The translations under genes and the position numbers were made by a program. From Acidimicrobiia bacterium (GTDB lineage Bacteria; Actinomycetota; Acidimicrobiia; Acidimicrobiales; Acidimicrobilacustridaceae), in NCBI GenBank assembly GCA_020832495.1, contig JAFIEP010000052.1, positions 62,001-126,000 on the forward strand: a DNA stretch of 64,000 nt. Reading direction: 5' to 3'. The notes below the pieces were generated by a model. It was not told the origin of the DNA. It saw nothing but the letters and a program-made list of their open reading frames with translations, and ran no database searches. Numbering within the stretch: position 1 is the stretch's first letter; every line of letters begins with the position of its first letter. Shown in pieces: positions 49,066 through 63,430 of this stretch.

Positions 49066-50127
49066 ATGACCAGGTCCCGCAGATCCCCGTTCCTCGCGTT
49101 GTTGGCTGTGCTGGGGGTGTTCTCCCTCGCTGCCGCCGCGTGCTCGGACGACGACGGCGACACCAGCACCGATGGCGAGACGACGACCACCACCGCCGCT
49201 GGCGATGACGGCGGTGACGATGGCGGCGACGAGGCCGAGGGCGCGGCAGCGTCGACCGACGGGGATCGCAGCGACTGGCCCGACACACTCGTCCTGGCCG
49301 CAGTGCCTGCCGAGCAGGACGCCCAGCTGCAGGAGAGCTACCGCGTGACGCGAGAGATCCTCGAGGACGAGCTCGGCATCGAGGTCGAGTTCTTCCAGGC
49401 GGCCGACTACGCCGGCGTGGTCGAGGCCCTGATCGCCAGCCGGGTCGACCTGGCTCAGTTCGGTCCGTTCTCCTACGTCATTGCCGTGGCCAACGGCGCC
49501 GATGCCGCACCGGTGGGCGTCATGGTCGAGGAAGAGGGTGGCGAACCCGGCTACCAGTCGTACCTGGTGGCCCGCTCGGACAACGACGACATCAACGAAC
49601 TGGCCGACGTCGAAGGTCAGCGGGTGTGCTTCGTGGATCCGAGCTCCACCTCCGGCTACCTCTACCCGATCGCCGGCCTGCTGGCCATCGACATCGACCC
49701 CGAGAGCGACGTCGATCCGATCTTCGCCGGGGGCCACGATGCCTCCGCCATCTCGGTGGTGAACGGTGACTGTGATGCCGGCTATGCCTTCGACTCGATG
49801 GTCGAAGTGCTGCTCCCCAGCCGCGGCGAGATCGAAGAGGGCGACCTGAAGGTGGTGTGGGAGTCGGAGGTCATCGCCGGGTCTCCGATGACCATGCGCA
49901 ACGACCTCCCCGAGAGCCTGAAGGACGCCATCGCTGACATCTTCGAGAACAAGATCAACGTCGACTGGGCCTTCGACAACGGCTACTGCGAGAGCAACGA
50001 CCCCGCCGAGTGCTCCTTCTCCGACGAGGCCATCTGGGGCTACGTTCCTCGGGACGACTCGTTCTACGACGGGGTCCGCGTGGTCTGCCGCGAGACCGGC
50101 GCACCGCAGTGCGACGGGATCAGCTGA
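49066..50127 (+). CDS. phnD: Phosphonate ABC transporter substrate-binding lipoprotein
   Basis: A 353-residue solute receptor anchored by a lipobox (FSLAAAAC, residue ~23). An unusually long acidic/Thr-rich linker (ETTTTTAAGDDGGDDGGDEA) precedes the PhnD fold. Family features include TLVLAAVPAEQD, the phosphonate-binding loop PSSTSGYLYPIAGLL and the segment IASRVDLAQFGPFSYVIA. It captures phosphonates outside the membrane for PhnC/PhnE. ATG at 49066 has a perfect AGGAGG 6 nt upstream. The frame is open to 48829, but this is antisense to the AfsR-like gene. Its stop overlaps phnC by one base (TGATG). Confidence 0.93.
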   Translation: MTRSRRSPFLALLAVLGVFSLAAAACSDDDGDTSTDGETTTTTAAGDDGGDDGGDEAEGAAASTDGDRSDWPDTLVLAAVPAEQDAQLQESYRVTREILEDELGIEVEFFQAADYAGVVEALIASRVDLAQFGPFSYVIAVANGADAAPVGVMVEEEGGEPGYQSYLVARSDNDDINELADVEGQRVCFVDPSSTSGYLYPIAGLLAIDIDPESDVDPIFAGGHDASAISVVNGDCDAGYAFDSMVEVLLPSRGEIEEGDLKVVWESEVIAGSPMTMRNDLPESLKDAIADIFENKINVDWAFDNGYCESNDPAECSFSDEAIWGYVPRDDSFYDGVRVVCRETGAPQCDGIS

Positions 50128-51014
50128 TGGCAGCCACCCCGTTCCGCCGGTCCGGACCCTTCGATGGGGCCGGGCCGGCCGGACCGGGTCCCGGTGCGTC
50201 CCCCGAGGCTCCGGTCGTCTCGCTGCGCGACGTGCGCAAGGAGTTCGACGGCGGTGACGTGGTGGCGCTCGACGAGCTCACCCTCGACGTCAGCCCCGGT
50301 GAGCTGACCGTCATCATCGGCCTGTCCGGATCGGGAAAGTCGACCCTGCTGCGCCACCTGAACGGCCTCACCGCTCCCACGTCGGGCTCGGTGGAGGTGC
50401 TCGGCGTCGACGTGGTGGCGGCACGCCGTCGGGAGCTCCGCCAACTCCGCCGCGACGTCGGGTTCATCTTCCAGCAGTTCAACATCGTCGGCAGGTTGTC
50501 GTGCATGGAGAACGTGCTCTCCGGTGCCCTCGGCCGCCTGCGAGGTCCCCGCTACGGCGTTGTCAGCTATTCGAAGGCGCTGCGACGCGAGGCGCTCGAG
50601 CTCCTCGATCGTGTCGGGCTCGTCGACCAAGCCTTCCAGCGCACCGACACGCTGTCGGGTGGTCAACAGCAGCGGGTGGCCATCGCCCGCACCCTCATGC
50701 AGCACCCGAAGCTGGTCCTGGCCGACGAGCCGGTGGCCTCGCTCGACCCGGAGATCTCCGGTCAGGTGATGGACGTGCTGTTCCGGGTGTGCTCGGAGGA
50801 AAACCTGTCGGTGCTGTGCAGCCTCCACCAGGTGGACCTGGCGCTCGGCTGGGCCACCCGGCTGGTGGGTCTGCGCGACGGGAAGCTGGTGCTCGACAAG
50901 CCGGCCGAGGGTCTCACCACCGAGGACGCCATGGCGGTCTACAAGCGTCTCGATCCAGCGGGCGAGAAGGCGGCGGAGTACCGCGAACTGGTGGTGAGCG
51001 GACCTTCCGCATGA
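50127..51014 (+). CDS. phnC: Phosphonate ABC transporter ATP-binding protein
   Basis: A 295-residue ATPase of the phosphonate importer. Motifs: Walker A IIGLSGSGKSTLLRHLNGL, Q-loop FIFQQFNIVGRLSCMENVL (PhnC-like), signature TLSGGQQQRVAIARTL, Walker B LVLADEPVASLDPE and H-switch CSLHQVDLAL. The ~40-residue N-terminal extension (Gly/Pro-rich) precedes the usual VSLRDVRKEFDGGDVV. ATG at 50127 overlaps the phnD stop; its own stop overlaps phnE as ATGA. Confidence 0.95.
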   Translation: MAATPFRRSGPFDGAGPAGPGPGASPEAPVVSLRDVRKEFDGGDVVALDELTLDVSPGELTVIIGLSGSGKSTLLRHLNGLTAPTSGSVEVLGVDVVAARRRELRQLRRDVGFIFQQFNIVGRLSCMENVLSGALGRLRGPRYGVVSYSKALRREALELLDRVGLVDQAFQRTDTLSGGQQQRVAIARTLMQHPKLVLADEPVASLDPEISGQVMDVLFRVCSEENLSVLCSLHQVDLALGWATRLVGLRDGKLVLDKPAEGLTTEDAMAVYKRLDPAGEKAAEYRELVVSGPSA

Positions 51015-52918
51015 CTGCGACCCGCGTCGAGCCCGAGTCTGCCACCGCCGAGCGGACGACGATCCTCGATCGCCTGCCGCTTCGCCCGCCGTGGCCGTGG
51101 CGCAAGAAGCTGCTCGCCGGCATCGGGATCACCACCGTTGCCGCCTTCCTGTGGGGCTCACGGCGGGTCGGCTTGTCACCCGCTGCGCTGGCCGAGGGCT
51201 ACGGCGACTTCATGCGCCTCCTCGAGCGCATGCTGCCGCCGGAGTTCCGCAACCCCGACGAGATCGTCTCGCTGGCCATCCAGACCTTCTACATCGCCTT
51301 CATCGGCACGGCCATCGCCGTGGCGCTGTCGCTGCCGCTGGCATTCATGGCGGCCCGCAACACCACACCCAACCGTGTGGCCTACTCGCTGTCGCGGGGC
51401 TTCATCGTGGCCATGCGGGCGATCCCCGATCTCATCTTCGCCCTCATCTTCGTGCGGGCCATCGGCATCGGCGTGACCGCCGGTATCTTGGCCATCGCCC
51501 TCAACGCCATCGGCATGATCGGCAAGCTCTTCGCCGACGCCATCGAGCAGATCGACGAAGGACCACGCGAAGCGGTGCTGGCCGCCGGGGGCACCCGCCG
51601 CCAGGCCATCATCACCGGGGTCCTGCCCCAGGTGTTGCCCTCCTTCATCGGCACCACGCTCTACCGGTTGGACATCAACTTCCGGACCTCCACCATCTTG
51701 GGTTACGTGGGCGCCGGTGGCATCGGCTCGCTCCTTCAGCTGTACCTGGGCAGCCTCCAGTACAAGCGGGCGCTCGGGGTGACGCTCGTGATCGTCGTGC
51801 TGGTGCTGGTCATCGAGTTCGTCTCGGCCTGGATCCGCCGCAGCATCCTGGGCAGCGACGACTTCGAGGCGAAGCGCCTCAGCCGCCGGGCACACGCAGC
51901 GCTCCGGCGAGGTCGCGCCAGTGCTGGGAACGGTTCTGCGAGCGGCGTTCACGTCTCGTCGTCGAACGGGACCGGGCCGGCCGGCGTCGAAGTGGTCGCT
52001 CGGGACGGCGCGCCGATCGCCAGCGTGGTCGACAGTCGGGCGGCATCGGTGCTGGCCGACGTGGGCGGTGGTGGTGTGGACGGCGGCGCGTCGCCCAGCT
52101 CGCTCGGTGGTCTGTCCGCCGTTCCGTTGGCCGAACGACCCCTGAAGCCACCCTGGACGACCCAGCGCGTCCGCATGGCCGCCTTCGGCTGGGGCAGCCT
52201 CGCGCTGTTGGTCCTCAGCCTCGTGTCGACGCAGGTGAGCCCGTGGGCGCTGCTCACCTCCGTCGGTGACATCGCCAGCGTCGCCGTTCAGCTCGTGCCC
52301 ACCAACATGGACTGGTACGACTCGTTCATCCTCGAGGGCATCGTCGAGACCATCGCCATTGCGGTGGTGGCCACCTGTTTGGGTCTGGCGGTGGCCTTCC
52401 CGCTCGCCTACCTGGCGGCGCGCAACGTGGCGCCCGCCAGGTGGGTGTTCTACGCCGCCCGGTCGGTGGTGGTGATGGTGCGAGCTGTCCCCGAACTCAT
52501 CGTCGCCGTGCTGTTCGTGGCCGCCGTGGGCCTCGGGCCGTTCCCCGGCGCCATGGCGCTGGCCATCGGCACCGTCGGGTTCGCCACCAAACTGCTGGCC
52601 GATGCCATCGAGGAGGTGCGGCCCGGCCCCCGCGAAGGCGTGTGGTCGGTGGGTGCCACCCGCATGCAGGAGGCGGCCACCAGCGTGACGCCGCAGGCCA
52701 TGCCCTCGTTCGTGGGTACCAGCCTCTACGTGTTCGACATCAACATCCGAGCCGCCACCATCCTTGGACTGGTGGGCGCCGGCGGCATCGGCTTCTACCT
52801 GATCCAGGCCACCCGCACCCTCGACTGGGAGCGGGTGGGCGGCATCCTCATCATCGTCTTCGTCCTGGTCTACGCCATCGAGCGGTTGGCCGGCTGGGTC
52901 CGAAAGCAGCTCATCTGA
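51011..52918 (+). CDS. phnE: Fused double phosphonate permease (PhnE-PhnE)
   Basis: A 635-residue inner-membrane permease holding two complete PhnE domains in one chain. The first (~55-300) contains the EAA loop EQIDEGPREAVLAAGGTRRQ and GYVGAGGIGSLLQLYL. The second (~375-635) contains EEVRPGPREGVWSVGATRMQ and GLVGAGGIGFYLIQATR. A ~65-residue Ser/Gly-rich linker joins them (around VSSSNGTGPAGVEVVARDG). Ordinary PhnE is ~260-280 residues and acts as a homodimer or a PhnE1/E2 pair; here the pair is covalently joined. ATGA overlap with phnC. A strong hairpin 61 bp downstream ends the operon. Confidence 0.93.
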   Translation: MTATRVEPESATAERTTILDRLPLRPPWPWRKKLLAGIGITTVAAFLWGSRRVGLSPAALAEGYGDFMRLLERMLPPEFRNPDEIVSLAIQTFYIAFIGTAIAVALSLPLAFMAARNTTPNRVAYSLSRGFIVAMRAIPDLIFALIFVRAIGIGVTAGILAIALNAIGMIGKLFADAIEQIDEGPREAVLAAGGTRRQAIITGVLPQVLPSFIGTTLYRLDINFRTSTILGYVGAGGIGSLLQLYLGSLQYKRALGVTLVIVVLVLVIEFVSAWIRRSILGSDDFEAKRLSRRAHAALRRGRASAGNGSASGVHVSSSNGTGPAGVEVVARDGAPIASVVDSRAASVLADVGGGGVDGGASPSSLGGLSAVPLAERPLKPPWTTQRVRMAAFGWGSLALLVLSLVSTQVSPWALLTSVGDIASVAVQLVPTNMDWYDSFILEGIVETIAIAVVATCLGLAVAFPLAYLAARNVAPARWVFYAARSVVVMVRAVPELIVAVLFVAAVGLGPFPGAMALAIGTVGFATKLLADAIEEVRPGPREGVWSVGATRMQEAATSVTPQAMPSFVGTSLYVFDINIRAATILGLVGAGGIGFYLIQATRTLDWERVGGILIIVFVLVYAIERLAGWVRKQLI

Positions 52919-53335
52919 CCGCCGTCCACAGCCACCCACGGTGGAGGTGCGTCCGCAGCGCACCACGCCGTCCCCGGCCACTCGGGTGGGTCCGGTCCAG
53001 GGCTCGCCGGACCCACCCGAGTCGGGGTCGGCCACCGCTGCGTCAACAACAAGCACGCGGCGTCGAACGCTGCAATGGCGTCGCTCGCCGAGAGTTCTCC
53101 CTTGGGGCGTCGCTCGATGCGATCGAGGACCCCTTCGACCGTCGGCGTCGCGGCGATGGCGGCGAGCTGCCCGGCGGGGAACTGCTGCAGCAACTGCCCT
53201 GCCGACGCGGCGCGCCGAAGGAACGCTCCGTGTACCTCCAGCGGCACGTCACCGATGTCGGGTCGCAGCCAAGGCGCCGCTCGAACGTGCACCCCAGGTG
53301 ACGAGACTGTACGCGTGGGTGCCCCTACCGCCGGC
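52919..53335. other. 417-bp stretch between phnE and mazF; no secure gene
   Basis: It contains the terminator hairpin at 52980-53022. On the minus strand an open frame from GTG 53292 down to 52870 (140 codons, with coding-like text such as AASAGQLLQQFPAGQLAAI) covers most of the stretch. Its end overlaps the 3' end of phnE and runs through the hairpin. I recognise no family in it, so I leave it unassigned: a decayed gene 3' part or a chance frame. Confidence 0.4.
52980..53022. terminator. Strong terminator hairpin after phnDCE
   Basis: ACTCGGGTGGGTCCGG (52980-52995) and CCGGACCCACCCGAGT (53007-53022) are perfect 16-bp complements around an 11-base loop, 61 bp after the phnE stop. No T-run follows, but such GC-rich stems are typical actinobacterial terminators. 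It could also stop antisense-strand transcription from the mazEF side. Confidence 0.75.
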
Positions 53336-53656
53336 TCAGCAGTCAACAGTCGCCCGTAACGCCTCGCAGGCCTCGGTGAACCGCATCGGGTCGAGCGTGC
53401 ACTGCCGCTCGACGAGGTAAGCCTTGGCCACCACACGTAGGTTGTCGAAGCTCGCCGCGCACTCAGCCGGCATGCCATCACTCGTGCCCAGTCGGAGTTC
53501 GGTCGGGATGCCGCGGATCGTCCGTGTCACGGGCGCCGCGAGCACGCTGTGTAGGACGGGGATCGCAGCTGTCCGAGTCATCACGAGGAACGGCCGACGG
53601 CCGACGCCTTCGATCTCCCCCCACCAGACCTCACCTCGCCTCGGCTCGGTCACCAT
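53336..53656 (-). CDS. MazF/PemK-type endoribonuclease toxin
   Basis: A 106-residue type II toxin that cuts RNA at short sequences. The full fold is present: RRGEVWWGEIEGVGRRPFLV at the N-terminus, VLAAPVTRTIRGIPTELRL in the middle and SFDNLRVVAKAYL toward the end, each typical of MazF. The ATG at 53656 overlaps the antitoxin stop by 7 nt. The pair sits in the convergent gap between the two halves of the C-P lyase locus. It is a complete relative of the degraded copy at 41308-41607. Confidence 0.88.
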   Translation of the reverse strand: MVTEPRRGEVWWGEIEGVGRRPFLVMTRTAAIPVLHSVLAAPVTRTIRGIPTELRLGTSDGMPAECAASFDNLRVVAKAYLVERQCTLDPMRFTEACEALRATVDC

Positions 53657-53904
53657 GGCTCCTCTGCGATGGCGTTGCGCATCGACGCTATTGCGGCCGC
53701 CCTCTCGGCGTCCGTCGGAGGAGTACGACGGTAGCCCTCCACGATCGAGCGGTCATCCCGGCGCCGGCGATCAAGCTCCACGACCGCCTCGATGCCAGCA
53801 CGCACAGCGGCTGCTCGAGACTCGTACACACCGCGGTCCACGAGGTCATCGAGGACCTTGAGCTGCTGCGTCGGGAGGCGCACAGCGATCTGCTCGGTTG
53901 CCAT
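53650..53904 (-). CDS. Ribbon-helix-helix antitoxin (MazE/ParD-like)
   Basis: An 84-residue antitoxin. The RHH fold is EQIAVRLPTQQLKVLDDLVD, then GVYESRAAAVRAGIEAVVEL; the C-terminal tail (DAERAAAIASMRNAIAEEPW) is acidic and helical, the part that usually blocks the MazF active site. ATG at 53904 is chosen over 53916 because a TATGCT box lies 13 nt upstream inside the operator. It binds the inverted repeat at 53913-53943 and represses its own operon (inference from layout). Confidence 0.85.
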   Translation of the reverse strand: MATEQIAVRLPTQQLKVLDDLVDRGVYESRAAAVRAGIEAVVELDRRRRDDRSIVEGYRRTPPTDAERAAAIASMRNAIAEEPW

Positions 53905-53912
53905 GGCAGCGA

Positions 53913-53943
53913 GCATACCGTTCTGGTTGTCGGAACGGTATGC
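53913..53943. promoter_or_regulatory. Perfect inverted repeat, toxin-antitoxin operator
   Basis: GCATACCGTTC (53913-53923) and GAACGGTATGC (53933-53943) are exact 11-bp complements with a 9-bp spacer. On the minus strand the first arm contains the TATGCT -10 box of the antitoxin gene, so binding would occlude the promoter. Confidence 0.75.
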
Positions 53944-54053
53944 GACCTGAACCGTCCCCGAAAGCGGGATCAGCGGTCGGGATGGCTGTACCGGAACCCC
54001 CCGCGCCCGAATCGGCGGACCCCGAGGTACCGGACGCTGGCCTGCCGAGGACC

Positions 54054-54686
54054 TCAGCCAGCCGAACGGTTGGCGAGGTCGACCACCAGCGGGGCCCAGT
54101 CCTCGAGCGGCGCCACCCGGCGCCCGGGCACCTTGGCGGCCTCGTCGGCGTGTCGGAGTGCCACGGCATCTGCTGCGTGCGGTGAGGCCTCGAAGGCTGC
54201 CACCTCGGCCTCGTGGAGCGGTCCGCCCTGCAGTTCGAGGGTGCGGATGCTGCCGTGGCTGAGCCGTCGCCGGTAGCCAGCATCGGTGGCGACGAGGTAG
54301 CGCTTGGCGGCCACGTGCAGCTCCACCAGCGCCGCCACCCGCTCGCCCAGCAGTGGCCGCACGGCGTCGGCCCCGTGACGGCCGTGTCCGTCGGCGTCGC
54401 CCGGCACCAGCAGATGCCCGACGTCATGGACGAGACCGGCAACCACCAGCTCCTCGTCGTGGGGATGCCAGGTCTCGAGGATGTCGGCGCATTGGAGGCT
54501 GTGGGACAGCACGTCGATCACGTCGCCGCCCACCACTCCGTCGGCCACGGTGTCCGAGGTGGACACCAGGGCGAGGAGCGTCTCGACGTCGGCGAACGCG
54601 AACGGCGGTGTCGGGGCGCCCGAGGTCGCCGCGCCACCATCGGGGGGCCTCCGGTCCGGCGAGTCTGGTGACGCTGCGGCGCTCAC
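54054..54686 (-). CDS. HD-domain phosphonate-associated protein (PhnZ-like diiron oxygenase family)
   Basis: A 210-residue HD-fold protein of the phosphonate-operon-associated HDIG family. Motifs: LSHSLQCADILE (first His), GLVHDVGHLLVP (HD pair), ELHVAAKRYL (His and the Lys equivalent to the substrate-binding Lys of PhnZ), then LELQGGPLHEAE and DAVALRHADEAAKVPG (last Asp). Mixed-valent diiron PhnZ/TmpB enzymes oxidatively cleave 1-hydroxyphosphonates. The positions that correspond, by my alignment to the first His, to the Tyr and Glu lid residues of PhnZ read Val and Asp, so the substrate may differ. GTG at 54686 overlaps the phnLM stop. No PhnY-type hydroxylase gene is in the window. Confidence 0.85.
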   Translation of the reverse strand: MSAAASPDSPDRRPPDGGAATSGAPTPPFAFADVETLLALVSTSDTVADGVVGGDVIDVLSHSLQCADILETWHPHDEELVVAGLVHDVGHLLVPGDADGHGRHGADAVRPLLGERVAALVELHVAAKRYLVATDAGYRRRLSHGSIRTLELQGGPLHEAEVAAFEASPHAADAVALRHADEAAKVPGRRVAPLEDWAPLVVDLANRSAG

Positions 54687-56863
54687 GATCGATCGCCCGT
54701 GTCGCCCGGTGCCCGCTCGCCGGCGGGTCCTGCGGTGGTGCCGGCTGCTGGGGTGCACATGTCGATGGGGGCGGTCGTGCCCGGCGGTGGCAGGTCCGGT
54801 CGGGCGGTCGTGGCCGGTGTCGTCGGTGCTCGGTGCCGCAGGTCCACCCGAGGCCAGCGGCCGTCGAGGTCGAGCACGACCACGTCGGCTCGGGCGCCCG
54901 CCTCCATTCGTCCACGGTCGTGGCGGCCCAGCACCTCGGCCGGCCCGACGGTCACCAGCCGCACCGCCCCCACGAGGTCGGTGGCGCCGTGCTCCACCAG
55001 ACGGAACACCGCGGCGAGCAGCGTGGAGGGCTGGTAGTCCGATGCCAGGGCGCTGCACAGCCCCTCGGCCACCAGGTGCTCGGCCGCCACGTTGCCCGAG
55101 TGCGACCCACCGAGCAGCACGTTCGGCGCACCCATGACGGTCGGCATGTCGAGCTCCCTCGCCGCCTGCGCGGCATCGACGCTGAGGGGGAACTCTGCCA
55201 CGCGTGCGCCACGCCCGTGGGCCAACTGCACGTCCGCGGCGTCCTCGCAGTCGTGGGCCAGGAGTCGGACCAAGCCGGCATCGGCCAACGCCGTCAGCTG
55301 TTCGAGGTTGGCCACTCGGATGGCTTCGCGCGCATCGCCCTCGGCGATGGCGGCGGCCACGAAGTCGTCGAGGTCCATCCCGTCGGGCAGATCCTGTGGC
55401 CGGATGGCCGCCCGGAAGGTGGCGACGTCGCGGTACTGGCCCTGCCCAGGGGTGTGGTCCTCCACCGACAGCAGCGGTGGGGGCCGGGGGTGCAGGGGCG
55501 GTGGGGTCTCGAGCCACGGGAGGACGGCGGCGAGCCCGTCGGGGCTGCGCACCTCGAGGCGATGGAGTCGGCGGTGCTCCACCGGGCCGGCGAGACGGCG
55601 GGCCCGCTCGTCGATGGTGCGGCACAGCTCGTCGGCGCCGTCGATGCTGCGTCCGTAGCTGGGCTTGTGCTCGAAGCCGACGCCGTGCGCCACCGTGGTG
55701 ACCCCCGCCGCAGCCAGGCGGCCCTCGAAGGAGCGGAGGGCGAACTCGGGGACGAAGCGGGCAGTGGCGCGGGGCGACACCTCACGTTCGAGCCCGTCGC
55801 TGTGCACGTCGACCAGGCCGGGAAGACACCAGCGCCCCCGCCCGTCGACGGCACCGGCTGGCGGGGTGCAGCGGTCACTCACCTCGACGATGATCCCGTC
55901 CTCGCACACCACGGTGGCGTCATCGATCACGCCACCGGGCGTGACAGCCCGCACGCTGTGCACTGCCCAGCGGTCCGCGGGGGCGGGGTCCCCGAGAGGG
56001 CTCGTGAGCTGCGCGGGCGCCGCAGGGGAGCGACGCAGCTCGGTGGGCGGTCCCTGCCGGGCCACCCGGCCGTTGCGCAGCACCACCACCCGATCGGCGA
56101 GGCGCGCCATGGCCTCGTGGTCGTGGAACACCGACACCATCGACACCCCAGCGGACCGCAGGTCGTCGAGCAGGTCGACGACCGCGTCGCGGTTGGCCGG
56201 GTCGAGGGCGGAGAACGGCTCGTCGAGCAGTAGCAGCGGCGGGCACCGCAGGGTGCCGGCCGCCAGGTTGACCCGCTGCTGCTCGCCGCCGGACAGGAGG
56301 TGCGCTCCGATCGACCAGATCGCCGGCGTCAGGCCGAGGCGAGCCAGCATCTCCTCGGCCACCGCAGTGGCCTCCGGTCGCCCCAGACCACGTCGCCGGC
56401 CGGCGGCGGCCACGATCTCGAGGGCGCTGCGCCGGGGCTCGACCCGTAGGAACTGCGAGACGTAGCCGATGCGCCTGACCCGCAGGTCGGCCAGCGTGCG
56501 GTCGTCCACCGAGGCCAGATCGACCGGGGGCCGTCCAGGGGAGCGGAGCCACACCTCGCCGGAGGTCGGGAGGTAGGTGCGGTAGATGCAGCGCAGCAGC
56601 GACGACTTGCCTGCGCCGCTCGGTCCGGCGAGGGCGACGTGTTCGCCGGGATCGACGGTCAGGTCCACGCCGTGGAGGGCGTCCACAGCATGGCCGTCGA
56701 GGGCATGGATGCGGAACACCTTGTGCAGCGAGCGAACCTCGAGCACCGGCGCAGTCGCGGTGTCCCTCCCCGGGGGGCCGTCCGCTGCGTGCGCTGTGGC
56801 GTCGGGCGCCGGCGCGGCATCGACGAGCGTCGTCTCGGGTGCGATCTCAGCCACGGGCGGCAC
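54683..56863 (-). CDS. Fused PhnL-PhnM (C-P lyase ATPase subunit and RPnTP hydrolase)
   Basis: A 726-residue fusion. PhnL part (~40-280): VALAGPSGAGKSSLLRCIY, RRIGYVSQFLRVEPR, LLSGGEQQRVNLAAGTL and LLLLDEPFSALDPAN. PhnM part (~300-690): LPGLVDVHSDGLEREVSPR, VEDHTPGQGQYRDV, LLAHDCEDAADVQLAHGRG, VMGAPNVLLGGSHSGNVAAE and ALASDYQPSTLLAAVF, the amidohydrolase features of PhnM. PhnL works with PhnI to attach the phosphonate to ribose triphosphate; PhnM removes pyrophosphate to give the C-P lyase substrate. The two are normally separate adjacent genes. GTG at 56863 overlaps the phnJK stop by 17 nt; GTG at 56854 is an alternative. Confidence 0.93.
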   Translation of the reverse strand: MPPVAEIAPETTLVDAAPAPDATAHAADGPPGRDTATAPVLEVRSLHKVFRIHALDGHAVDALHGVDLTVDPGEHVALAGPSGAGKSSLLRCIYRTYLPTSGEVWLRSPGRPPVDLASVDDRTLADLRVRRIGYVSQFLRVEPRRSALEIVAAAGRRRGLGRPEATAVAEEMLARLGLTPAIWSIGAHLLSGGEQQRVNLAAGTLRCPPLLLLDEPFSALDPANRDAVVDLLDDLRSAGVSMVSVFHDHEAMARLADRVVVLRNGRVARQGPPTELRRSPAAPAQLTSPLGDPAPADRWAVHSVRAVTPGGVIDDATVVCEDGIIVEVSDRCTPPAGAVDGRGRWCLPGLVDVHSDGLEREVSPRATARFVPEFALRSFEGRLAAAGVTTVAHGVGFEHKPSYGRSIDGADELCRTIDERARRLAGPVEHRRLHRLEVRSPDGLAAVLPWLETPPPLHPRPPPLLSVEDHTPGQGQYRDVATFRAAIRPQDLPDGMDLDDFVAAAIAEGDAREAIRVANLEQLTALADAGLVRLLAHDCEDAADVQLAHGRGARVAEFPLSVDAAQAARELDMPTVMGAPNVLLGGSHSGNVAAEHLVAEGLCSALASDYQPSTLLAAVFRLVEHGATDLVGAVRLVTVGPAEVLGRHDRGRMEAGARADVVVLDLDGRWPRVDLRHRAPTTPATTARPDLPPPGTTAPIDMCTPAAGTTAGPAGERAPGDTGDRS

Positions 56864-58892
56864 TCACAAGACGTTGGCTGTAGGGGTGCTGTGGGTCGGC
56901 GAGGAGCTGATCGGTGAGCCCCTGTTCGACCACGCGCCCCTGGTGCATGACCAGCACCCGCCGGGTGAGGAGCTCGATGACGCCGATGTCGTGGGAGACC
57001 ACCACGGCGGCCACGCCGAGCTCGTCGAGCAGGGTGCGCAGCAGGTCCAGCACCCCAGCGGCCACCGAGGCGTCGAGGCCGGTGGTGGGTTCGTCGAGCA
57101 GGAGCAGCGGAGGCTCGTTGGCCAGTGCCTTGGCCAATTGCACGCGCTGGCGCATGCCGCCGGAGAACTCTCGTACCGGGTCGTCCATGCGCTCGAGGGG
57201 CACCTCGACCCGTTCGAGCAACTCGGCGGCTCGGTGGCGGATCTCGGCGAAGCTGCGCATGCCCGCCGCGGTCAGCCGGTCGGCGATGTTGCCGCCGGCG
57301 CTGACCGAGAGGTCCAATCCCTCGGCGGGATCCTGGTGGACGACCGAGAGGTGTGACACCCGCAACGCTCGGATGCGGGCGTCGTCGAGCGAGAGGATGT
57401 CGGTGTGGCCGTCGTCGACGCTGGCCAGGTGGGCGCGGCCGACGGTGGCCTTCTGTTCGCCGGCCAGGCACCGCAGCACGGTGGACTTGCCCGACCCCGA
57501 TTCACCGATGATGCCGAGCGCCTCACCGGGTGACACCTGCAACGAGACATTCCAGGCGCCCACCACCGCGCCCGACGTGGGGCTGACGACGGTGCCGAAC
57601 TCGGGCCCGGTGCCCTCCACATCGGCCGGGGAGCCGCGGCCGTAGATCCGCCCCAGCTCCTCCACCCACAGCGTCCACGGCGGGCTGTCGGGGTCGGCGG
57701 GCAGCGAGCCTTCAGCCGGGAGGCCCGTGCAGGGGATGCGTGAGGCCAGCCCATCGGGTGCGTTCGACGGTGATGTCGTCGGCGGTGCGAGGGTGGACCC
57801 GGGGTGGACGAGCACGTCGATCGGCGGTTGTCGAGGCCGGGCGATCGACCCGTCGTCGCCGGGTCGGTCGCTCACGTCGCCGGCGGCGCGAGCCAGTCTG
57901 CCGGCGGGGTGTTGCGCCGGGTCGGCCCGGCACAGCGCTGCGGCTGTGTCCACCGCGCCCTCCCGATGTCGTCGACACCAGTCGGTGTCGCTGCATACCC
58001 ACACGGTGTGCTCACCGTCGCTGCTCGGCACCTCCACGAGGAACGACGACGTCGATCCGCAGTGTCCGCAGCGGCTGTCGGGCGCACGCTCCACCTCGAA
58101 GGGGACATCGTCGAAGGTCAGTGGGACCACGTCGGTGTGGGGTGGGACGGCGTAGATGCGCTTCTCGCGGCCGGCGCCGAACAGGGACAGGTGGTCGGCC
58201 TGGTGCAGCGCCGGCACGTCCCACCGAGGGATCGGCGTGGTGGCGATGACGTAGCGGCCGGCCACGGCGCAGGGGTAGCCGGTGGTCCGACTGATCACGC
58301 CGTTGCGCACCTTGTCCTCGTAGAGGCTCACCCACATGCGGGCGTAGTCGGCCTCGGCGTGCAGCCGGCGTTGTTCACTCATGTCGCGCTCGACGCCGCG
58401 CAGCGGCTCGGGCACCGGCACTTGCAGCACGAGGGTCTGCCCGCTGCGCAGCGGATCCTCGGGGATGCGGTGGCGCGTCTGCACCACCGTGGCGGCCCGG
58501 GCGTCGTCGGTGGTCGACACCCCGGTGGTGGCGGCCACGAGTCGGCGCAGGTTGGTGGCGTTCACGCCGTCGTCGTCACCTTGGTCGATGACCTTCACCA
58601 CGTCGTCGGGGCCGACGATGGCCAGGGTGACCTGCAGCCCTCCGGAGCCCCAGCCCCGGGCCACCGGCATCTCCCGGGATCCGAATGGCACCTGGTAGCC
58701 GGGGACGGCCACCGCCGTAAGCGTCGCCCGGCGGATCTCGCGTGTGGATCCTTCGTCGAGAAAGCCGAAGGATCCCTCATCGCTGCCACGGTGCTGCTCG
58801 AGCAGTCGGTCGAGCAGGCCGACGCCCGCACCGCCGACGCTCGCATGTGCGGTGGTCGGCCCGTGCAGGGGGTCGCTTGGCTGGTCGCTCAT
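56847..58892 (-). CDS. Fused PhnJ-PhnK (radical-SAM C-P lyase and its ABC ATPase)
   Basis: A 681-residue fusion. PhnJ part (1-~315): YARMWVSLYEDKVRNGVISR, then RCGHCGS and VCSDTDWC. C275, C278, C300 and C306 keep exactly the 3-22-6 spacing of the four conserved Cys of PhnJ (iron-sulphur ligands plus the catalytic Cys). PhnK part (~390-681): LGIIGESGSGKSTVLRCLAG, EFSGGMRQRVQLAKALAN, LLLLDEPTTGLDAS and VVVSHDIGVI. PhnJ cleaves the C-P bond of ribosyl phosphonate phosphate; PhnK docks on the core complex. A ~70-residue Pro/Ser/Asp-rich linker joins them. ATG at 58892 overlaps the phnI stop as ATGA; the frame stays open far upstream, antisense to nothing conserved. Confidence 0.94.
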   Translation of the reverse strand: MSDQPSDPLHGPTTAHASVGGAGVGLLDRLLEQHRGSDEGSFGFLDEGSTREIRRATLTAVAVPGYQVPFGSREMPVARGWGSGGLQVTLAIVGPDDVVKVIDQGDDDGVNATNLRRLVAATTGVSTTDDARAATVVQTRHRIPEDPLRSGQTLVLQVPVPEPLRGVERDMSEQRRLHAEADYARMWVSLYEDKVRNGVISRTTGYPCAVAGRYVIATTPIPRWDVPALHQADHLSLFGAGREKRIYAVPPHTDVVPLTFDDVPFEVERAPDSRCGHCGSTSSFLVEVPSSDGEHTVWVCSDTDWCRRHREGAVDTAAALCRADPAQHPAGRLARAAGDVSDRPGDDGSIARPRQPPIDVLVHPGSTLAPPTTSPSNAPDGLASRIPCTGLPAEGSLPADPDSPPWTLWVEELGRIYGRGSPADVEGTGPEFGTVVSPTSGAVVGAWNVSLQVSPGEALGIIGESGSGKSTVLRCLAGEQKATVGRAHLASVDDGHTDILSLDDARIRALRVSHLSVVHQDPAEGLDLSVSAGGNIADRLTAAGMRSFAEIRHRAAELLERVEVPLERMDDPVREFSGGMRQRVQLAKALANEPPLLLLDEPTTGLDASVAAGVLDLLRTLLDELGVAAVVVSHDIGVIELLTRRVLVMHQGRVVEQGLTDQLLADPQHPYSQRLVSAARG

Positions 58893-60145
58893 CGGGCGCT
58901 GCTCGTCTCGTCGGCGGGAGCATTGCGTTCGCCGATGGTGGGCCGCCCATCGTCGTAGGCTGTTCGCCGGTGTCGTTGGCGGGCGGCCATGGCCACCTTG
59001 CGTTCCACCATCGAGCGGAACGTCACGTAGTGCGGCAGCTTGAGGTGCTCGAGGAAGCCCGAGGCATCGAGTCCGTCGGTGGTGACCAGCACCGACTGCT
59101 CGAGACCGCTGCGTCCACCGTCGCGATGCACGGCGATGTCGAGGTTGGCCATGGCGATGGCCTTGCGCTCGTTGTGTCCCGCACAGAGGCCGTAGCCGGC
59201 ATCGAAACGGGTGCGGTCCTCCTCGGGTCCGTCGAGATCCTCGATGGCCTCCACCTCGGTCACCCGAATGTGTCCGACCACCACCGGGCGCCCGCTGTGG
59301 GGATGGGTGACGGGCAACGGGAGGCGGGCGTGGCGCACCTCGCCGAGCGTCACCTCGTGGAGGTGGTCGTCGGGGCCGAGGATGTTGCGGTACCACAGGT
59401 TGACCAGCGCGCCGGTCTCGGCGCGGGCCATGGTGGCCAGGCGGGCCGAGCGAGGCACGCCCGGGCGGACCGGATCACGGGTGATGTCGTAGGGCGACGG
59501 ATCGTCGCGCCGTCGCCGATCGACGAGCAGGTCGAGGTCGCGCAGCAGGTCGAGCAGGCGGCCACATCGGGGCAGGCCATCGGCCGCGATCACCGGCTCG
59601 GCGGCTCCGGCATCGTCGGCACCGGGTTCCTGCGCGCGGTGGCCGTTGCCGGCGAGCTCGCCGTGACCGGCTGAGCGGTCGGTGATGTCGACATCGACGT
59701 CGACCACCGTCTCGTCCGCCGTGTCGTCCATCGCGCCGCTGGCTGGTGGACGGCACTCGAGGAGGCGTCCGGAGTAGTCCACCGTTCGACCGAGCAGCTG
59801 CGGGCCCGGTGGGTTCTGGTAGGCGGGGACGACCCTGCGGAGCAGTGGCGCGCCGGTGGGGTCGATCGGCTCGGTGGTGCCCAGCCGGGGCAGGGTCGAC
59901 CGGTGCGACCGCAGGAGCTGCGCAGCTTCGATGATGTCGCCTTCTGCCTGGATGAGCGCAGCGGCGGCCAGCGCCGGCGCCCACAGGCTCCCTTCGCTCA
60001 TCACCCGGTCGACCGCCAGGCGCTGGCGTTCGGTGAGCTGGTCGACCTGCAGCGGGGCGGCATCGCTGTGCCGGCGAGCGTTGCGCACCAGGTGCTCGGC
60101 GGCGGCGACCGCCGCCAGCCCGCCGCGGGCGGCGGCGTAGCCCAT
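58889..60145 (-). CDS. phnI: Carbon-phosphorus lyase complex subunit PhnI
   Basis: A 418-residue subunit, longer than the usual ~360. Conserved blocks: MGYAAARGGLAAVAAAEHLV at the N-terminus, MSEGSLWAPALAAAALIQAE, RRVVPAYQNPPGPQLLGRTV, then DITRDPVRPGVPRSARLATM and LVTTDGLDASGFLEHLKLPH near the end. The extra length is a ~60-residue acidic insertion (around DETVVDVDVDITDRSAG) before GLPRCGRLLDLLRDLDLL. PhnI is the nucleosidase-like subunit that, with PhnG, H and L, couples phosphonate to ATP ribose. The ATG overlaps the phnH stop by one base. Confidence 0.93.
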   Translation of the reverse strand: MGYAAARGGLAAVAAAEHLVRNARRHSDAAPLQVDQLTERQRLAVDRVMSEGSLWAPALAAAALIQAEGDIIEAAQLLRSHRSTLPRLGTTEPIDPTGAPLLRRVVPAYQNPPGPQLLGRTVDYSGRLLECRPPASGAMDDTADETVVDVDVDITDRSAGHGELAGNGHRAQEPGADDAGAAEPVIAADGLPRCGRLLDLLRDLDLLVDRRRRDDPSPYDITRDPVRPGVPRSARLATMARAETGALVNLWYRNILGPDDHLHEVTLGEVRHARLPLPVTHPHSGRPVVVGHIRVTEVEAIEDLDGPEEDRTRFDAGYGLCAGHNERKAIAMANLDIAVHRDGGRSGLEQSVLVTTDGLDASGFLEHLKLPHYVTFRSMVERKVAMAARQRHRRTAYDDGRPTIGERNAPADETSSAR

Positions 60146-60840
60146 CAGCGCTCCTCGCTGTGCAGCGCGGTGACCCGCAGGTTCGACGAGCGGGCCAGCG
60201 CAGCCACGGTGCCGTCATCGGCGGTCAGCCACACGTCGATGCCACAGGGGAACGCGCGGTTGGCCTCGGCGATGGCGGCCAGCACATCGGGGGACAGCCC
60301 GTCGACCTCCACCCGGCGGCGACCCGGCACACCTGGCCCGGCGACCTCGACCATGGTGGCTGCTGGCGGCCTGGGCCGCGGGGGTACCGGCCCGCTGGAG
60401 GGCAGCGGGACGAGGGCGTCGCAGCGGATGGCCAGCCTGGCTGCGGCTTCGGGGGCGTCTGGTCGGCCACGACGGAGTGCAAGGATCTGGCCGGGAGTGG
60501 GCTCGGTGAGAGCCACAGCGACGTGGGCCGCCTCGAGTACCGACGGACGCGCGCCGGTGGCGTCGCACACGGAACGGGTCCATCGGCCGTCGGCGTCGCC
60601 GGTGATGACCGCCACGGACTGGCTGGGGTCGCCCAATGCCAGCGGGAGGAGCAGGGCGGTGGGTGCACCGTCGGGCAGGAGATCACCCGGAGTGGTCGCC
60701 ACGGTGCCAGGTCGGCTGAGGGTGCGGAGGAGCACGTCGAAGAGCGCCTGGGAGCGGCGAGCGTCGGACCACGTGGTCCGCCACGCCGCCGCAGGTGCGA
60801 CCGTCGCGGCACGGTTGGCATCGGGTGGCGCGATCGTCAC
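60145..60840 (-). CDS. phnH: Carbon-phosphorus lyase complex subunit PhnH
   Basis: A 231-residue core subunit. The N-terminal half shows the family pattern AWRTTWSDARRSQALFDVLL followed by LSRPGTV and PTALLLPLALGDPSQSVAV. The C-terminal part has RRRVEVDGLSPDVLAAIAEA and NRAFPCGIDVWLTADDGTV, matching the conserved FPxGxD-like segment of PhnH. It is structural within the PhnG2H2I2J2 core. GTG at 60840 overlaps the phnG stop as GTGA. Confidence 0.9.
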   Translation of the reverse strand: MTIAPPDANRAATVAPAAAWRTTWSDARRSQALFDVLLRTLSRPGTVATTPGDLLPDGAPTALLLPLALGDPSQSVAVITGDADGRWTRSVCDATGARPSVLEAAHVAVALTEPTPGQILALRRGRPDAPEAAARLAIRCDALVPLPSSGPVPPRPRPPAATMVEVAGPGVPGRRRVEVDGLSPDVLAAIAEANRAFPCGIDVWLTADDGTVAALARSSNLRVTALHSEER

Positions 60841-61352
60841 CGGTCCAGCTCCTCGAACTGCACGGTGGTGGCGGCCAGGACGGACCACTCTTGGTGCTCT
60901 GCTGCGGCTCGCTCGTCGGCCACCCGGTCGCAGAGCGCCATCACCTCATCGGCCAGCGGCCGGCGAGCGGTGGCCTCGGCGTCCAGCACCGCAGCGGCCA
61001 GGGTCGGGATGGGTTCGTCGCCCAGGCGCATGGCCCACCCCCGGGTGCCGTCGAGGTCGATCTCGGCTCGGGTGGCCAGCACCTCGGTGAGGTGGAACCG
61101 GTCGCCGACCACGGGCTCGCGCACCTGCACCACCACCGTGCCGACCTCCGGGCCGACGATCAGCTGCGGTGGCGAACCTTCGGCCACCGCCCGCTCGGCC
61201 AGCCCGATGACGTCGTCGGGCGGCGCGGCGGCGAGCAGCTCGCAGCGTTGCTCGCGGGTCCACCCGCCGCCGTTGCGGCGTCCATCGTCGGTCGGTCGGC
61301 GGCGCGCCTGCTGCTCGCGCTCGGTGCGGGCGGGGGGATCGATGGTGCTCAC
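60837..61352 (-). CDS. phnG: Carbon-phosphorus lyase complex subunit PhnG
   Basis: A 171-residue core subunit. TREQRCELLAAAPPDDVIGL, the central QLIVGPEVGTVVVQVREPVV and GDRFHLTEVLATRAEIDLDG match the PhnG pattern; the tail WSVLAATTVQFEELDR is also typical. The first ~30 residues are a basic, disordered extension. GTG at 61352 overlaps the phnF stop (GTGA). Confidence 0.9.
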   Translation of the reverse strand: MSTIDPPARTEREQQARRRPTDDGRRNGGGWTREQRCELLAAAPPDDVIGLAERAVAEGSPPQLIVGPEVGTVVVQVREPVVGDRFHLTEVLATRAEIDLDGTRGWAMRLGDEPIPTLAAAVLDAEATARRPLADEVMALCDRVADERAAAEHQEWSVLAATTVQFEELDR

Positions 61353-62128
61353 GAGGCGGCCTCCAACCGGAACACGACCTTGAAGACGTCGGTGCGGAGC
61401 CACGAGCGGGCGAACTCGATGGGCCGTCCCTCGCCGTCGTGGTTGCACGACAGCAACCACCAGGCGAGTGGACGGCCGGAGAGCCCCAACAGGCTTGCGG
61501 CCTCGGGTGCGAGCACATCGAGTTCGGCAGTGCTCCACGCACGCCGAGGCGAGACGCGATAGTGCTCGACCAACGTGGTGTAGAGCGACGCACTGTCGGC
61601 GTGCCTGCTGCTGGTCTCGATGCCGTTGCTGGTGTCGCACGTGGTGCCATCGGCGCAGCCGTCCCCGGCGACCAGCTGTGCCGGCAGGTCTGTGAATCGG
61701 TCGGCTGGGAAGTGCGAGGAGCTGATGCCGGCCTGTTCGCCGTCGACCCAGCCTCGCCGGTCGACGCGCACCACGGGAGCGCCCGGGGCCAGGCCGAGGG
61801 CGTCCGCCACCTCCCCGTCGGCGGCGACGACCTCGGTGGCCAGCAGTTCGTTGCGGGGCACGCCGCCGGCGCGGCGGACGGTCTCGCTCCACGACGGGGG
61901 TGTGTCGGCGGCGATGCGGTACTCGATGCGACGGGCCACGAACGTGCCGGCGCCACGAACCCGCCGCACGAGGTGGCGGCGCTCGAGCTCTTGCAACGCT
62001 GCGCGGGCCGTGAGCCGGCTGATGCCGTGGAGGTCGACCAGTTCGTGTTCCGACGGCACCCGGCTACCGGGTACGGCCTTCCGTACGTCGACCTCGAGCG
62101 AGTCGGCGAGCGCCAGGTAGGTGGTCAC
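61349..62128 (-). CDS. phnF: GntR/HutC-family regulator of the phosphonate operon
   Basis: A 259-residue repressor-type regulator. The N-terminal winged helix (~5-70) contains PGSRVPSEHELVDLHGISRL, then TARAALQELERRHLVRRVRG and GAGTFVA. A UTRA effector domain (~90-255) follows, with APVVRVDRRGWVDGEQAGIS and FPADRFTDLPAQL. As the first gene of the minus-strand phn operon, it most likely senses phosphate or a phosphonate-derived ligand and binds the palindrome at 62152-62165. The start is GTG at 62128. Its stop overlaps phnG by 4 nt, so regulator and enzyme genes are co-translated. Confidence 0.9.
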   Translation of the reverse strand: MTTYLALADSLEVDVRKAVPGSRVPSEHELVDLHGISRLTARAALQELERRHLVRRVRGAGTFVARRIEYRIAADTPPSWSETVRRAGGVPRNELLATEVVAADGEVADALGLAPGAPVVRVDRRGWVDGEQAGISSSHFPADRFTDLPAQLVAGDGCADGTTCDTSNGIETSSRHADSASLYTTLVEHYRVSPRRAWSTAELDVLAPEAASLLGLSGRPLAWWLLSCNHDGEGRPIEFARSWLRTDVFKVVFRLEAAS

Positions 62129-62151
62129 ACCACCAACGGGACCACGACCGC

Positions 62152-62165
62152 GTTGTCATGACAAC
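62152..62165. promoter_or_regulatory. Palindrome upstream of phnF, probable PhnF operator
   Basis: GTTGTCATGACAAC is a perfect 14-bp palindrome centred about 30 bp before the phnF start. Its size and TGTC...GACA arms are like GntR/HutC operators. It is the only strong symmetric site in the 120-bp gap before the phn operon. Confidence 0.65.
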
Positions 62166-62248: not shown

Positions 62249-63430
62249 TCAGGTGGTGGTGTCGAGCACCTCGACCAGTCGGCGGAACAGTGTGGTCGGG
62301 ACGTGCTCGGAGAGCTGGGAGACGTTCATCACGATCACGACGGTGGTGTCGGTGTCGACGTCGTGCATGACGAGCGAGGTGAAGCCGAATCCTTCTCCGG
62401 TGTGGCCCCACCAGCCGGCCACCTCGCCGATGCCCAGGGCGTACTCGTCGTACACCGGACCCTCGTCGAGCGGTGCACCCTCGAGCCGGGCGGCCTGGGT
62501 GGCCTCGTCGAGCAGCGAGCCGTCGGCCAACACCCGACCCCACGCCGCCAGGTCGGCAACCGTGGCCACCATGGCCCCGGCGGGACCGAACACCGAGAAG
62601 TTCACCGGCTGGTCCTCGAGGTCACCGTCGTCGCCCGGCGCGTAGCCGATGACATCGACGTCCACGTCGTCGGGTCCGCTCGGGTAGACGGTGGCGTCGA
62701 GACCCAGCGGGACGAGGAGCCGCTCGTCGAGCACGTCGGCGAAGGCCTGTTCGGTGACGGCCTCGACCAGTTCGCCGAGGAGCACCGTGTTCAGGTTCGT
62801 GTAGACACGCTCGCTCCCGGGTTCGAACTGCATGGGCTCGTCGTCGACGAAGGCGATCAGCTCGTCGATGGTGAACCACCGGGTCGGGTCCTCGACGAAG
62901 GCCTCGACGAACACCTCGTTGGTGTAGTCGGGGAGCCCACTCGACATGTCGGCCAGTTGGCGGACGGTGACGCTCGGATCGCCGGGGACGTCGTCGAGGT
63001 AGTCCCCGATGGGGTCGTCGAGGTCGACCAGGCCTTCGTCCACCAGTTGCAGCACCAACGTCACGGTGAACGTCTTGGTGATGCTGCGCAGCGGCCATTC
63101 GCCGTCTGCCGTCAGGGGCTCGTCGGTATCGAGGTCGCCCACCCCCACGGCTCGGACGAGCTCGTCGTCACCTCGGGTGATGAGCACCACGGCGCCGGGA
63201 GCACCGAACTCCTCGAGGGTGTCGTCGATGACCTCGTCGACGGTCGCACCGAGCGATTCGAGGTTGTCATCGATGGTCGACTCGTCCACGGCGGTGTCGT
63301 TGCCCGTTGACGCGCCGTTCGATTCGTCGCCATCGGACCCGTCGTCCCCGGCGCACCCGGCGAGCACGAGGGCGAGCACAGCCGCCAGGGCAAACCACGT
63401 CGAGAAGCGGGAGGACGATCCATGGAGCAT
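62249..63430 (-). CDS. Serine hydrolase lipoprotein, beta-lactamase/penicillin-binding-like (class C fold)
   Basis: A 393-residue lipoprotein. The lipobox is LALVLAGC at ~25, followed by an acidic Ser/Asp-rich linker. The catalytic motifs of the class C beta-lactamase superfamily are SITK (nucleophile Ser and Lys, in LRSITKTFTVTLV), the YxN motif in RVYTNLNTVLLGE, and HTG in WWGHTGEGFGF. Such proteins are D,D-peptidases or esterases; real beta-lactamase activity is not implied. ATG at 63430 is backed by TACGGT 12 nt upstream; an internal ATG at 63423 is out of frame. It lies upstream of phnF on the same strand, but 120 bp and a palindrome separate them. Confidence 0.88.
   Translation of the reverse strand: MLHGSSSRFSTWFALAAVLALVLAGCAGDDGSDGDESNGASTGNDTAVDESTIDDNLESLGATVDEVIDDTLEEFGAPGAVVLITRGDDELVRAVGVGDLDTDEPLTADGEWPLRSITKTFTVTLVLQLVDEGLVDLDDPIGDYLDDVPGDPSVTVRQLADMSSGLPDYTNEVFVEAFVEDPTRWFTIDELIAFVDDEPMQFEPGSERVYTNLNTVLLGELVEAVTEQAFADVLDERLLVPLGLDATVYPSGPDDVDVDVIGYAPGDDGDLEDQPVNFSVFGPAGAMVATVADLAAWGRVLADGSLLDEATQAARLEGAPLDEGPVYDEYALGIGEVAGWWGHTGEGFGFTSLVMHDVDTDTTVVIVMNVSQLSEHVPTTLFRRLVEVLDTTT

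Follow-up and report, generated by a model that had tools for sequence, protein, structure and literature searches.

Can proteins that meet in the known C–P lyase complex be made as single chains? The question is raised by a phosphonate locus in the genome of an Acidimicrobiia bacterium, of which a stretch of 64,000 nucleotides (the window) was analysed. An earlier note on this DNA had described three gene fusions, PhnE-PhnE, PhnJ-PhnK and PhnL-PhnM. At all three places the expected domains are matched by profiles, within joined frames that contain no stop codon. We consider it probable (about 0.8) that this is a working phosphonate uptake and C–P lyase locus in which partners that meet in the known complex became single chains.

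Gene content and layout of the locus

The host assembly is a draft of 4.46 Mb in 147 contigs with 96.9% completeness, and it contains one phnJ and one strong phnM. On the plus strand, phnD, phnC and a two-domain phnE constitute the importer (Table 1), with an overlap of 4 bp between the latter two genes. On the minus strand, seven genes run from position 62128 downward in the order phnF, phnG, phnH, phnI, phnJ-phnK, phnL-phnM and a gene for an HD-domain protein. All seven core C–P lyase proteins (PhnGHIJKLM) are found by profile search to be encoded together at the locus, and the earlier statement that phnDCE and the C–P lyase genes through phnM are all present is borne out. PhnG, PhnH, PhnI and PhnJ score over the Pfam cut-offs and PhnM over that of NF011990, while the NCBIfam profiles of PhnK (TIGR02323), PhnL (TIGR02324), PhnG (TIGR03293) and PhnH (TIGR03292) rank first or near the top among named matches but stay below their curated cut-offs. 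Neighbouring genes overlap mostly by 1–4 bp, and by a few bases more between phnJ-phnK and the chosen start of phnL-phnM. Thus, the genes from phnF to the HD gene look like one translationally coupled unit. The GC content at third codon positions is about 0.73–0.97, in frame, over all three fusion junctions. Together with the lack of stops in both joined frames of the minus strand, this shows that each linker belongs to the coding frame of its fusion.

Table 1. Features of the phn locus in window positions, with supporting matches.
Feature	Positions	Strand	Match or remark
phnD, phosphonate-binding lipoprotein of ABC importer	49066-50127	+	PF12974 1.9e-55; TIGR01098 over cut-off
phnC, importer ATPase	50127-51014	+	TIGR02315 283.6 bits, cut-off 266.1
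phnE-phnE, two permease domains in one chain, 635 aa	51011-52918	+	TIGR01097 matched twice, 503.6 bits, cut-off 216.7
HD-domain metalloprotein, PhnZ/TmpB type, 210 aa	54054-54686	-	TIGR03276 4.4e-41 (140.4 bits, below 214.6 cut-off); PhnZ 4mlm 4.5e-24
phnL-phnM fusion, 723 aa	54683-56854	-	TIGR02324 7.3e-65; TIGR02318 2.9e-88; NF011990 over cut-off; continuous frame
phnJ-phnK fusion, 681 aa	56847-58892	-	PF06007 6.7e-122; TIGR02323 4.1e-68
phnI	58889-60145	-	PF05861 2.1e-88
phnH	60145-60840	-	PF05845 78.7 bits, cut-off 25
phnG	60837-61352	-	PF06754 71.6 bits, cut-off 32.4
phnF, GntR/UTRA regulator, first gene of the minus-strand unit	61349-62128	-	PF00392 and PF07702 over cut-off; TIGR02325 best NCBIfam match, below cut-off
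perfect palindrome GTTGTCATGACAAC	62152-62165		upstream of phnF

The palindrome GTTGTCATGACAAC occurs only once in the window even when up to 2 mismatches are allowed (0.10 copies expected), and its core TTGTCATGACAA is found once in each of 10 other phn loci, which makes it a good operator candidate for PhnF. Further upstream of phnF, at 62249-63430, a gene was assigned by eye, from its sequence only, to a serine beta-lactamase-like lipoprotein. Between the two phn units, the minus strand at 53336-53904 carries a regulator-like 84-aa ORF (no Pfam match; a ribbon-helix-helix antitoxin by eye) that overlaps a PemK/MazF-family gene (PF02452). This is likely a type II toxin–antitoxin pair, and an inverted repeat (TACCGTTC/GAACGGTA) lies upstream of it at 53916-53940.

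The C–P lyase is sparse in the class and phylum of the host. PhnJ is present in 6 of 395 genomes of the class and in 15 of 397 of the phylum, and none was found in the 36 further genomes searched from the family. The nearest PhnJ relatives are from Acidimicrobiia metagenome genomes.

PhnJ-PhnK and PhnE-PhnE: contacts, spread and origins

In the window, the PF06007 domain and the PhnK ATPase share one uninterrupted frame, with PhnJ at residues 41–310, a linker at about 310–405 and PhnK at about 406–679. The four cysteines of PhnJ for which an exact spacing had been claimed are indeed found, at positions 275, 278, 300 and 306 in the alignment to E. coli PhnJ, and their spacing of 2/21/5 is the same as that of the four C-terminal cysteines of the E. 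coli protein (PDB entries 4xb6/7z15). Both fused ATPase domains, PhnK and PhnL, carry the Walker A, signature and Walker B motifs, in line with the earlier view that the Walker motifs are intact and that the fusions look functional.

In E. coli, PhnJ and PhnK are reported to bind each other through Glu149, Tyr158, Asp226, Asp228 and Asp229 of PhnJ and Arg78, Arg82 and Arg116 of PhnK (PMC9947105). Most of these residues are kept in the fused chain. In the alignment, Glu149 corresponds to Asp182, Tyr158 to Tyr191 and Asp228/229 to Asp261/262 on the PhnJ side, and Arg78 to Arg508 and Arg116 to Arg546 on the PhnK side. Two contacts are changed: Asp226 of PhnJ is Thr259, and Arg82 of PhnK is Val512, with Arg511 adjacent. 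The mostly kept contacts fit a tether between partners that would dock anyway. As the catalytic residues and most of these contact residues are kept, the proteins look functional, and the locus is a real, probably functional, compacted C–P lyase gene set of a high-GC actinobacterium. An AlphaFold model of PhnJ-PhnK built from 31 fused rows (mean pLDDT 54, pTM 0.33) is too poor to judge docking.

For comparison, genomes were scanned with the PhnJ of the window as query, which gave 80 actinobacterial loci; PhnJ-PhnK forms one uninterrupted frame in 36 of the 78 loci with both domains, a fraction of this set and not a population frequency. The search for PF06007 joined to an ABC ATPase proposed in the earlier note is thus positive, and the chains were placed on a tree. 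Among the carriers of the fusion are named isolates of Mycobacterium, Nocardia, Rhodococcus, Prauserella, Saccharopolyspora, Pseudonocardia, Amycolatopsis, Actinoplanes and Streptomyces. One Streptomyces locus (L087) was scored as unfused solely because its contig stops after PhnJ. In another genome (G040, L104:5588-7068), the PhnJ frame extends, with an 11-aa gap, over the first third of PhnK, which then continues in another frame; this ambiguous case, a broken or mis-assembled fusion, was left out of the count. Outside Actinomycetota, the plasmid matches listed either have PhnJ and PhnK annotated as two genes or are unannotated. PhnE has two domains in 44 of 52 actinobacterial loci, a set retrieved by PhnJ similarity. 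In the window the two domains are joined by a Gly/Ser-rich linker of about 100 aa, so that the permease pair would lie within one chain. PhnJ-PhnK and PhnE-PhnE are therefore recurrent, widespread layouts in Actinomycetota and not novel in nature.

The loci of Mycobacterium, Nocardia, Saccharopolyspora, Pseudonocardia and Streptomyces endocoffeicus resemble the window in having PhnJ-PhnK, mostly PhnE-PhnE, and a PhnF regulator, and no PhnP or PhnN match is found at these loci. They differ from it in their separate PhnL and PhnM, a J-K linker that is mostly shorter, and, in most of them, an inositol-monophosphatase-like gene after phnM. A metagenome actinobacterium (TL1-2.bin71, L018) has a PhnJ-PhnK that is 60% identical to that of the window in the tblastn alignment and a similar HD protein, whereas its phnL and phnM are separate, with an inositol-monophosphatase-like gene in between (L018:7263-8069). 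It is not the sister of the window in the PhnI-J-K tree, and a derivation of the window's fusion from that of L018 is rejected (window and L018 grouped, p=0.0005).

In the PhnI-J-K tree, 33 fused actinomycete rows form one clade with a support of 100. Forcing the window, L018 and this clade together is rejected (p=5e-5); the PhnJ-PhnK fusion therefore appears to have arisen at least two times, unless fusions were later lost. Whether the window itself represents an independent event is a closer call. A common origin with the actinomycete clade is compatible with the PhnI-J-K tree (constraint not rejected, p=0.24) and also with the PhnK tree (constraint not rejected, p=0.78), but the free trees put the window among unfused Acidimicrobiia, and the J-K linkers of the two groups differ. 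We consider a shared origin a serious alternative, at somewhat less than even odds.

The PhnL-PhnM fusion

In this chain the ATPase spans about residues 38–257 and the diphosphatase about 298–670, with a linker of about 30 aa. No other example was found. The fusion is seen in 0 of 72 actinobacterial loci with both domains, a whole-protein search of about 800 genomes from the class and the phylum gave the window alone as an uninterrupted two-domain match, and among the plasmid matches listed none is fused, the alignments being in separate pieces. The proposed search for an ABC ATPase joined to PhnM elsewhere was thus negative in these sets. The earlier note had implied that the set of fusions is new and had named their being common as a point that would count against this. 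Such is the case for PhnE-PhnE and PhnJ-PhnK; PhnL-PhnM, in contrast, is unusual. Of the three fusions it alone looks rare, and it is known from one draft assembly.

The relatives show how such a join could arise. Their phnL and phnM usually share a 4-bp overlap, ATGA, in different frames. In three genomes (G251, G616 and G589) the two genes are in the same frame and one stop codon apart; a fusion is ruled out in these three by that stop codon, and their arrangement makes stop loss an easy route to PhnL-PhnM. The fusion would be a rare further step, which could stem from the loss of a stop codon or from an indel in the usual overlap.

Where gene ends overlap, a fusion is easily reached by mutation. 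All the fusions could thus be neutral, the product of drift in genes that overlapped by 4 bp or were one stop apart, and tethering would bring no benefit. The variable length and sequence of the PhnJ-PhnK linkers and the single occurrence of PhnL-PhnM agree with this. On the other hand, PhnJ-PhnK is retained in 33 of 33 rows of a clade that spans several orders, and it arose more than once, between partners that bind each other. Neutral drift is in our view a less likely explanation, though one to be kept in mind.

An assembly or base-call error, with PhnL and PhnM in truth separate as in all relatives, is highly improbable: the join is seen once, in a draft of 147 contigs, and some relatives are a single in-frame stop away from it, so that one wrong base could mimic a fusion, but the coding signal is unbroken across the junction, single-base consensus errors are rare, and all frames stay free of stops from the junction to deep within the PhnM domain, so that a one-base indel error would imply an overlap greatly exceeding the 4 bp that are usual in relatives. 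With the junction known from a single assembly, one wrong base at a former stop codon is possible.

Pathway end and a possible one-particle assembly

Unlike E. coli, the host has no match over cut-off to PhnN or PhnP in its whole genome. Other C–P lyase operons also lack them, and the two are thus not essential to the C–P lyase family (PMC10574752). The HD protein, on which the earlier note is silent, is encoded by the last gene of the unit, with a 4-bp overlap at the phnL-phnM stop. It shares the metal-binding residues of the HD oxygenases PhnZ and TmpB (4mlm, 6npa), with the di-iron ligand positions of PhnZ conserved in sequence. It differs from PhnZ near the active site, where the Tyr24/Glu27 pair is replaced by Val and Asp, and no PhnY partner is seen in the unit. 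The HD proteins of four other loci (L018, L035, L008 and L009) also lack the Tyr/Glu pair, while those of others (L064, L079 and L085) keep Tyr-x-x-Glu, which suggests two subgroups of HD proteins in C–P lyase loci.

Of the 51 actinobacterial C–P lyase loci that could be scored, 47 (e.g., L052) have an inositol-monophosphatase-like gene (PF00459) immediately after phnM in the same orientation, and such a gene is present in 48 of 62 loci over 11.5 kb. With one PhnP and two PhnN queries, the fetched actinobacterial loci gave one weak PhnN-like match (L093). The inositol-monophosphatase-like gene may stand in for the missing enzymes of the final steps; among the papers listed by our literature search, none links it to C–P lyase. 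The window has no such gene beside phnM, the best match in the genome being 33% identical and located elsewhere, and the HD protein is found in its place.

The E. coli Phn(GHIJKL)2 structures (PDB entries 7z15-7z19 and 4xb6; PMC9947105) share with the window the same subunits and motifs and most PhnJ–PhnK contacts. The window differs in having J and K, L and M, and the two permease domains as single chains. In E. coli, PhnK sits on the insertion domain of PhnJ, a PhnL pair is stacked on top of the PhnK pair, and ATP turnover needs both ATPases (PMC9947105). On this architecture, PhnJ-PhnK would keep the ATPase permanently beside its docking site, the PhnJ insertion domain. Each (GHI)2(JK)2 core would then carry its own PhnK pair, with PhnK and PhnJ fixed at 1:1. 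PhnL-PhnM could dock via PhnL on the PhnK pair, as E. coli PhnL does, and bring the PhnM diphosphatase to the same particle. Ribosyl-triphosphonate would be made at PhnI, trimmed by PhnM and cleaved at the C–P bond by PhnJ, all on one assembly. We infer from the fusions that one ATPase is tethered to the core (J-K) and the other to the diphosphatase (L-M). The 1:1 loading fits the known contacts, and the carriage of PhnM on the stack would follow from PhnL-PhnM. That PhnL-PhnM anchors the diphosphatase on the core, so that formation, trimming and cleavage occur on one (G-H-I-JK-LM)2 particle, is a tentative proposal which we hold at about one chance in three. If true, it would be a one-particle form of a pathway in which PhnM is otherwise only known as an enzyme of its own.

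No description of a PhnJ-PhnK or PhnL-PhnM fusion was found in the open-licence literature, and every C–P lyase structure found has the E. coli form, with PhnK and PhnL as separate subunits. A survey that looks for phnJ and phnK as two genes can mistake fused clusters for incomplete ones. A 2021 review writes Streptomyces clusters as phnMLKIH... and phnMLJIH..., each without J or K (PMC7866108). Streptomyces endocoffeicus (L085) carries the PhnJ-PhnK fusion; thus, these clusters may hold unrecognised J-K fusions and be complete. The natural PhnJ-PhnK fusions could serve as constructs with a fixed 1:1 ATPase loading, and PhnL-PhnM, if true, would be a hint that PhnM is part of the complex.
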